A stretch of DNA of 64,000 nucleotides from Actinotalea endophytica (GTDB lineage Bacteria > Actinomycetota > Actinomycetes > Actinomycetales > Cellulomonadaceae): the NCBI RefSeq assembly GCF_025717005.1, contig NZ_JAOVZU010000003.1:1-64000 (forward strand), read 5' to 3'. A model generated the notes under the pieces. That model was not told the DNA's origin, did no database searches, and saw only the letters and a list, made by a program, of their open reading frames with translations. Shown here one piece after another: positions 60,915 to 64,000 of this stretch; position 1 is the stretch's first letter, and each line of letters starts with the position of its first letter. The position numbers and the translations under genes are program-made.

Positions 60915-60993
60915 CCCGCGTGGACGGCCGGTGCACGCCGGCCGTCCACGATCGCCGTCCACCATCCCCGTCCACCCATCCCTGGAGGTAGCT

Positions 60994-62287: not shown

Positions 62288-62716
62288 GTGCTGCGCAACG
62301 TGATGGTCCTGGTCGGCCTGGGGTTGGCGATCTACGCCCTGGCGGACTGCGTCCAGGCGCGCCGGTACGTCCGGACGCTGCCGTGGGGTATGTGGGTCCT
62401 CGTCATCCTCGTGCCGTTCGTCGGTCCGATCGCCTATCTGATGGCCGGCCGACCCACCGCGGAGCAGGCCAGGCGGTCGGTTCCCTGGGCGGCCACCACC
62501 ACGGCCGGGTTCCCCGAGCACGAGCGGCCGCGTGACGTGCCGCCTCGCGGCCCGGAGGACGACCCGGAGTTCCTCGCCAAGATCGCGGAGGAGCGCCGCC
62601 ACGAGCAGATGCTCAAGGACTGGGAGGCGCAGCTCCGGGAACGCGAGGAGTCCCTCGATCGCGACGACAGCGCCCGCGAGGCCGACACCGAGGACGACCG
62701 GCACCTCGAGGACTGA
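62288..62716 (+). CDS. PLDc_N-type membrane protein
   Basis: This 142-residue protein has two N-terminal helices (about residues 3-20 and 32-52) with the phospholipase D nuclease N-terminal-like signature AIYALADCVQ ... WVLVILVPFVGPIAYLMAGR. A charged, coiled-coil-like tail rich in Glu and Arg follows (KDWEAQLREREESLDRDD). Such proteins have unknown roles. AAGGTGG precedes the GTG. It follows fabF by 58 bases and is unlikely to be part of fatty acid synthesis. Confidence 0.82.
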   Translation: MLRNVMVLVGLGLAIYALADCVQARRYVRTLPWGMWVLVILVPFVGPIAYLMAGRPTAEQARRSVPWAATTTAGFPEHERPRDVPPRGPEDDPEFLAKIAEERRHEQMLKDWEAQLREREESLDRDDSAREADTEDDRHLED

Positions 62717-62773
62717 CCGAATCGGCACGGCCGCACCAGCGGGCCGCGCCACAGCACGACCCCGGAGGCATCG

Positions 62774-63406
62774 TTGCCCAAGATCGTGGCCCGGCCCGAG
62801 CGCCGCGAGCTCCTGATCGACGTCACCTGGAAGCTCATCGTCGCGGAGGGCCTGGACGCCGTCACCCTGCGGCGGGTCGCCGCCGACGCCGGCTTCGCCA
62901 ACGGCGCGGTGAAGCCGTACTTCAGCTCGAAGGCCGCGCTGATGGAAGCGGCCTACCGTCGGGCCTTCGACCGGACCGTGGACCGCGCGGCCCTCAGCGT
63001 GGGCACACGCACCGGCCTGGACGCCATCCGACGGCTCTGCCTGGAGATCATGCCGCTGGACGACGAGCGCAGGGTCGAGGCGCGGGTCGTGATCGCGTTC
63101 TGGGAGGCGGCGATCGGCGAGCCGACGATGGCCAAGGTGTTCCGAGACACGGTGTCCTCGTTCTCCGACGATCTCGCGCGCTATCTCGCGCAGGCCCGCG
63201 AGGCCGGCGAGGTCACGGTTGCCGAGCCGAACAGCGCGATCGTCGACGAGCTGCTGTGGATGATGATGGGTCTCCAGTCGATGTGCTGGCTGATGCCCCA
63301 GCAGACCTCCGCGCGCCGTCAGCGGGCGGTGCTCGACCGGTTCCTCGAGAACCTCGGCGCGCCCGAGCCCGCCGTGCTCACGGGTGACGAACCGATGGGT
63401 AGTTAA
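62774..63406 (+). CDS. TetR family transcriptional regulator
   Basis: This 210-residue protein has an N-terminal TetR helix-turn-helix (TLRRVAADAGFANGAVKPYFSSKAALMEAAY, about residues 35-65) and a long helical ligand-binding domain like that of BetI. The start is TTG at 62774 with GGAGG six bases upstream. It sits directly before an APC permease gene, and a 30-base inverted repeat lies between them, so it probably controls that permease. Confidence 0.9.
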   Translation: MPKIVARPERRELLIDVTWKLIVAEGLDAVTLRRVAADAGFANGAVKPYFSSKAALMEAAYRRAFDRTVDRAALSVGTRTGLDAIRRLCLEIMPLDDERRVEARVVIAFWEAAIGEPTMAKVFRDTVSSFSDDLARYLAQAREAGEVTVAEPNSAIVDELLWMMMGLQSMCWLMPQQTSARRQRAVLDRFLENLGAPEPAVLTGDEPMGS

Positions 63407-63464
63407 CTCCAGCGTCATCCGTACGGGCCGAACCTCAATCGAGTTGAAACGTCCGAGGACTTCC

Positions 63465-63494
63465 CCGGAAATTCTCCGACCGGAGAATTTCCGG
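63465..63494. promoter_or_regulatory. 30-base inverted repeat at the permease start (operator or translational hairpin)
   Basis: CCGGAAATTCTCCG and CGGAGAATTTCCGG are perfect 14-base arms around two bases (AC), ending one base before the permease ATG. The right arm contains GGAG, the likely Shine-Dalgarno sequence, at 63482-63485. It may be a binding site for the upstream TetR regulator, or the transcript may fold and hide the ribosome site; both are possible. Confidence 0.85.
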
Positions 63495-63495
63495 C

Positions 63496-64000
63496 ATGAC
63501 TACCACACAAGGAACGGCCACCTCTGGTGGTGTGGCACCGTCCTCGTCCTCGGACGACATCGGTCGCACGCTGAGCGGGAACCTCGGCGTCGGCTCCATC
63601 GTGTTCATGGTCGTCGCGGCCGCGGCCCCCCTCACGGTCATCGGCGGCGCGGCACCGCTCGGCATCGCGCTGGGCAACGGCGTGGGCTTCCCGAGCCTGT
63701 ACGCCATCTCCGGCGTCGTGCTGCTCCTGTTCTCGGTCGGGCTCGCCGCGATGGCCCGATCGGTCCCCCGGCCCGGCGCGTTCTTCACCTACGTCGGCTA
63801 CGGCATGAACCGGGCGCTCGGCCTCGGCGCGGCCTGGCTGGCGCTCCTCACCTACACCGCCGTCCAGCTCGCCGTGTACTTCTACATCGGCTTCAGCCTC
63901 AACCTGTACCTCACGACGCTGCTCGGGGCGCCCGACATCCCGTGGTGGGCCTACAGCCTCGCGACGATCGCACTGGTCGGCTACCTCGGCTACCGGAACA
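63496..64000 (+). CDS. APC family amino acid permease, N-terminal part (runs off the window)
   Basis: The first 168 residues are present. A 28-residue Ser/Thr-rich N-terminal tail is followed by LSGNLGVGSIVFMVVAAAAPLTVIGG, the first APC helix with its substrate-binding unwound glycine stretch. Helices 2-5 are visible before the edge, including RPGAFFTYVGYGMNRALGLGAAW. The likely substrate is an amino acid or amine. It follows a TetR regulator and a long inverted repeat. Confidence 0.9.
   Translation, partial: MTTTQGTATSGGVAPSSSSDDIGRTLSGNLGVGSIVFMVVAAAAPLTVIGGAAPLGIALGNGVGFPSLYAISGVVLLLFSVGLAAMARSVPRPGAFFTYVGYGMNRALGLGAAWLALLTYTAVQLAVYFYIGFSLNLYLTTLLGAPDIPWWAYSLATIALVGYLGYRN

Follow-up and report, generated by a model that had tools for sequence, protein, structure and literature searches.

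RNA hairpins that sequester a ribosome binding site (RBS) are a general kind of translation control. At the level of DNA, the TetR-family repressor MbdR of Azoarcus sp. CIB acts through an 18-bp palindrome, ATAC-N10-GTAT; its footprints span the start site and the -10 region of catabolic promoters, and a pathway intermediate releases it (PMC4424350). Here we analysed a stretch of 64,000 nucleotides, referred to below as the window, that opens a 464-kb contig of Actinotalea endophytica (genome 4.25 Mb). In it a tetR gene and an APC permease gene lie on the same strand, 89 bp apart, and a perfect inverted repeat begins 58 bp after the tetR stop (Table 1). Comparison with relatives makes it highly likely that the BetI-type TetR repressor encoded next to this dyad uses it as its DNA operator. 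By analogy, the proposed operator would resemble that of MbdR in being an 18-bp palindrome for a TetR-family repressor. It differs in sequence and position, since under MbdR transcription starts 137-138 bp before the ATG, leaving no overlap with the RBS, and the substrate is 3-methylbenzoate (PMC4424350).

The regulator and permease named in an earlier sequence-only reading were both confirmed, the former by its domains. The regulator shares the TetR_C_6 subgroup with BetI, the choline-responsive TetR repressor (TIGR03384, NF001978), which supplies its best NCBIfam matches. Unlike BetI, it scores far under the equivalog cut-offs (51.6 and 50 bits against 201.3 and 118), and its neighbours are permease, ETF, OCD-like and DAO genes, not choline genes. 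Its best structural relative by sequence profile is the TetR protein of PDB 2nx4 (E 5.6e-61 over 194 residues), whose listing states no DNA complex or function. On the 3′ side of the dyad, the permease is followed on the same strand by etfB, etfA, a tyoB homologue (536 bits against a cut-off of 362 for the NCBIfam family 'tyramine oxidase subunit B', NF004848) and a gene for a DAO-type FAD oxidoreductase. This gene content suggests the uptake and oxidation of a presumed amine substrate, with electrons passed to ETF.

Table 1. Features of the tetR-permease region, in window coordinates.
Feature	Position	Strand	Remarks
tetR, BetI-type TetR regulator, 210 aa, TTG start as called	62774..63406	+	Pfam TetR_N and TetR_C_6 above cut-off
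Weak candidate promoter: TTGAAA 63444-63449, 18 nt, GAAATT 63468-63473	63444..63473	+	Inferred by reading the sequence; promoter scan negative
Perfect 14+2+14 dyad, proposed TetR operator with extended symmetry	63465..63494	.	
18-bp operator core ATTCTCC-N4-GGAGAAT	63471..63488	.	7-bp half-sites both identical in closest orthologue
GGAG, sole Shine-Dalgarno-like motif 5′ of permease ATG	63482..63485	+	Within right half-site
Start of APC permease gene, which continues to contig position 64983	63496..64000	+	First gene of permease-etfB-etfA-tyoB-DAO

The arms of the dyad (63465-63478 and 63481-63494) form exact reverse complements around a central AC, as the sequence-only reading had stated, although the span it gave, 63465-63496, runs two bases past the true end. 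The arms are also A+T-rich against their surroundings (57% G+C, compared with 73% for the window), and the motif GGAG in the right arm, 10 nt before the ATG, is indeed the sole Shine-Dalgarno-like sequence in the 25 nt preceding the permease, where it occurs once and GAGG, AGGA and AAGG are absent. These are the longest arms of any dyad in the window (loop of at most 12). Taken alone, arm length is only marginally significant, because an arm of 14 was reached in 1 of 30 first-order Markov shuffles of the window and a longer one in none of the 30; the dyad is made convincing by its place and its recurrence, not its length. Elsewhere in the window, a G+C-rich perfect 13+6+13 dyad (CGTGGACGGCCGG...) at 60919-60950 directly follows an acpP-like gene and precedes a ketoacyl-synthase gene, and is perhaps a hairpin between two fatty-acid genes. 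A single place in the 4.25-Mb genome matches the central 26-mer when up to 3 mismatches are allowed, and a single place matches the 18-bp core when up to 2 are allowed, so that no further copies define a regulon at these thresholds. That no second site stands 5′ of tetR itself within 2 mismatches of the core counts against the operator reading.

The closest orthologue was found among 221 genomes of the family, four of which contain a TetR match at E 1e-30: the genome itself, one at 80% identity (G015, the same locus as L014 in the locus set described below) and two at 46% and 39%. The permease of the orthologous locus shares 91% identity with that of the window, and the genes follow the same order up to the end of the locus. 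Its core is ATTCTCC-ACCC-GGAGAAT, where the window has ATTCTCC-GACC-GGAGAAT. Over 63446-63492, 39 of 47 bases agree; at fourfold sites the agreement is 68/114 in the first 168 permease codons and 49/98 in tetR.

For a wider comparison, GTDB species genomes were searched with a TetR profile made from five sequences, and the best 80 of 247 loci were used. The helix GFANGALKPYF, one residue off the putative recognition helix of the window protein (GFANGAVKPYF), is present in 54 of the 80. With the closest orthologue left out, a palindrome with 9 or more of 11 positions paired lies within 150 bp 5′ of tetR in 54/79 loci, against 9, 7 and 8 in three shuffles, and 41 of these 54 are variants of one 26-mer, TTATTTTCTATAGTTGTAGAGAATAA, from Arthrobacter and its kin. 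A profile was then built from 18 distinct 26-mers 5′ of related tetR genes; six odd-centred palindromes had been dropped, and some of the 18 kept look like noise. With its core form, the window dyad comes 1st among 63,975 positions and exactly in register; with the full 26-mer it comes 6th, and with the core without spacer 2nd. On the orthologous locus the core ranks the site 1st of 8,572 positions, and the other two forms rank it 2nd each. We regard this ranking as the main test of the proposed operator, since neither the window site nor its orthologue was used in building the profile. As in TetR-family operators, the palindrome stands beside a TetR gene and the likely target promoter of its product, and palindromes of the same class recur in register at related TetR loci. 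The identical half-sites in the orthologue, the top rank with an independent profile and the recurrence at related loci together make a functionless chance palindrome, which the one shuffle with an equal arm would allow, extremely improbable.

The genes beside these regulators are consistent with an amine operon, as all five neighbouring oxidases tested (L015, L017, L023, L027, L031) are copper amine oxidases. Two Amycolatopsis loci (L031:3904 and L046:3902) have a TetR helix GFANGALLYYF in place of ...KPYF, and their upstream half-sites are TGTAC-type, not CTMC-type, as if recognition helix and operator had changed jointly.

An earlier iterative profile, whose seeds included the window site and its orthologue, gave 138 sites across the 81 loci searched, against none in three shuffles, and 73 of the 80 relatives have at least one. 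Most of these related sites lie in tetR upstream regions, with sites about 45-100 bp before the tetR starts and away from any RBS. Some results of this search weigh against the operator reading. The window site scored 12.4, barely over the cut-off of 11, despite having been a seed. Seven relatives (L015, L016, L019, L021, L022, L039 and L061) were without a site; L015 and L021 carry CTCC-type sites in its place, and the other five, including L039 with the recognition helix of the window, have none in the locus stretch examined. A naive TTCT-N8-AGAA pattern occurs in 9/80 tetR upstream regions, with 0/80 for each of four control patterns, and matches few regions because the Arthrobacter half-sites differ.

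The form closest to that of the window, CTCC-N4-GGAG, was followed separately. Matches to the window core with up to 2 mismatches number 12, in 11 of 80 loci, against 0, 0, 2, 1 and 1 in shuffles. When the half-site was permuted (up to 40 variants), TTTCACC gave 24 matches, more than the real one, which again tells against the operator reading; ACTCCTT gave 7 and the others at most 3. The TTTCACC excess is ascribed to a putative second palindrome class of TTTTTTCGCC type in these loci. Such palindromes, TTTTTTCGCC-N4-GTTGAAAAAAG and variants, stand near tetR and amine-oxidase genes at L027:4628, L033:6141, L048:4620 and many other Arthrobacter-type loci, and may be another operator of the TetR protein or else be bound by a FeaR-like AraC regulator.

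A dimeric regulator other than the adjacent TetR could likewise be proposed for the window palindrome, given that one Arthrobacter locus (L027) has a FeaR-like AraC protein beside tetR (163 bits, below the cut-off of 199), so that co-occurrence with TetR is not exclusive there. This is very unlikely for the window, where the site is single in the genome and next to tetR. In Streptomyces and in two further genomes (G692 and G660), moreover, sites stand beside this type of tetR with no AraC among the genes examined, which were part of the open reading frames.

Of 70 held-out tetR upstream regions, a strict window-like profile recovered only 2, and 14 of 1777 other stretches also passed, a further point against the operator reading. 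The two recovered, L021 and L015, are those whose TetR is closest after the orthologue (50% and 56% identity). In 396 genomes of the order, the search returned, besides the genome itself, the TetR proteins of G692 (59%) and G660 (54%, with the same site as L021). G692, which was used in no profile, contains 3 sites with up to 2 mismatches in 13.5 kb (0.01 expected), and G660 contains 2 in 14.0 kb (0.04 expected). In both, one site abuts the RBS of a class-III aminotransferase gene (Pfam), followed in G692 by a MoaF-domain gene, and another lies before a gene that in G692 encodes a binding protein. Beside the next-closest TetR proteins, therefore, CTCC-N4-GGAG sites are found at aminotransferase, permease and binding-protein genes, several of them on RBSs. 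At L108:4821-6970, a class-III aminotransferase gene with CTCC-N4-GGAG against its RBS precedes a MoaF-domain gene, an arrangement that suggests a monoamine regulon controlled by the same type of TetR.

The recurrence of the dyad before APC permeases, a check put forward in the sequence-only reading, was found in part. Where the permease lies downstream on the tetR strand (15 loci), nine carry ATTCTCC-N4-GGAGG(T) over the permease RBS, L048 carries it with the spacer shortened to 3, and five lack it; where it lies on the other strand (12 loci), 11 are without the site and one was too short to test. Two related permeases with no tetR match in their locus stretch (L095, L096) lack a dyad of this kind over the 360 bases that were read.

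The same reading had proposed that the hairpin hides the permease RBS in RNA, possibly as a dual transcription and translation switch: a transcript with both arms would conceal the GGAG and leave the permease untranslated unless the hairpin is opened. In a milder form, the hairpin would exist only in RNA read through from tetR and insulate the permease from leaky translation. The window RNA does fold very stably over its sole GGAG (-21.7 kcal/mol, z -6.1, with 0/200 shuffles as good), and the arms of the orthologue still fold at -16.3 kcal/mol, as in switches with a stable stem over the Shine-Dalgarno sequence; a stable RNA hairpin is, for its part, expected of any transcribed perfect palindrome. 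Co-transcription is also conceivable, as the two genes share a strand and an intrinsic terminator scan of 63300-63560 found none; the conservation with the orthologue continues for about 19 nt beyond the left end of the dyad, which would allow a start there; and L048 keeps pairing arms with its altered spacer, which suits RNA more than a rigid operator. Against this, the changes in the one orthologue at paired positions 63478, 63489 and 63490 are compensated in 0 of 3 cases. They break the innermost pair and two A-T pairs that lie between the core and the CCGG ends; pairing persists in the core and at the CCGG ends. An Arthrobacter permease site (L027) folds at only -5.1, equalled by 38/200 shuffles, and at the aminotransferase sites of G692 and G660 a second GGAG is left free. 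An Rfam scan of 62700-64000 gave no match to the dyad and one chance-level match at 63691-63766.

The position of the transcription start bears on the same question. A TTGACA-like hexamer (matching at 4 or more of 6 positions) precedes the TATTCT of the left half at the 10 Arthrobacter-type permease sites, by 15 nt in six of them and 16 nt in four; distances of 19, 22 and 24 nt occur in 2 sites each. On the side facing the amine oxidase (40 distinct sequences) the spacing is 15 nt in 10, 16 in 3, 17 in 19 and 18 in 10, and any other distance from 10 to 30 occurs in at most 4 sequences; toward tetR no spacing peak was seen. The left half-site in the Arthrobacter relatives thus resembles a -10 box, which is suggestive only, the sequences being closely related, and would put the left arm outside the transcript. 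By analogy, an RNA in the window would start near the middle of the dyad and then be unable to fold. A start left of the dyad, or read-through from tetR, is possible, because a sigma-70 promoter scan of 63300-63560 found none and because of the conservation on that side. The window hairpin is like RBS-sequestering hairpins in that the RNA strand would fold over GGAG, and unlike them in its uncompensated stem changes, the missing Rfam match and a left arm that is perhaps not transcribed. With many of the related sites lying away from any RBS and the Arthrobacter fold weak, RNA or dual control is unlikely and the claim found no support.

In the operator model, a TetR dimer would bind ATTCTCC-N4-GGAGAAT when no inducer is present, covering the region of the promoter and start site together with the DNA of the RBS, and would thereby block transcription of the permease-etfB-etfA-tyoB-DAO operon. 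An inducer, probably an amine or an amine-derived compound, would free the repressor from the operator on binding. The right half-site would double as the source of the GGAG of the RBS. A combined role, in which one 30-bp palindrome would be the operator bound by TetR in DNA and would also close off the permease RBS in RNA read through from tetR, seems improbable to us. Here the half-site GGAGAA would have been recruited repeatedly as the Shine-Dalgarno sequence, or directly beside it, in this regulator group: at the permease in the window genus, at the permease in Arthrobacter and its kin, and at the aminotransferase in G692 and G660. If true, these would be fusions of operator and RBS under joint selection.

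Our literature search found no study of the TetR group that stands beside copper amine oxidases, aminotransferases and APC permeases. The window dyad is a probable operator for this group, and otherwise an ordinary genetic switch, as judged from the comparison of relatives. The recurring overlap of half-site and RBS is a small curiosity. The proposal supplies a concrete candidate operator, roughly WTYCTCC-N4-GGAGRAW here and TTATTTTCTA-N6-TAGAGAATAA in Arthrobacter, and predicts amine-responsive operons in many actinobacteria.
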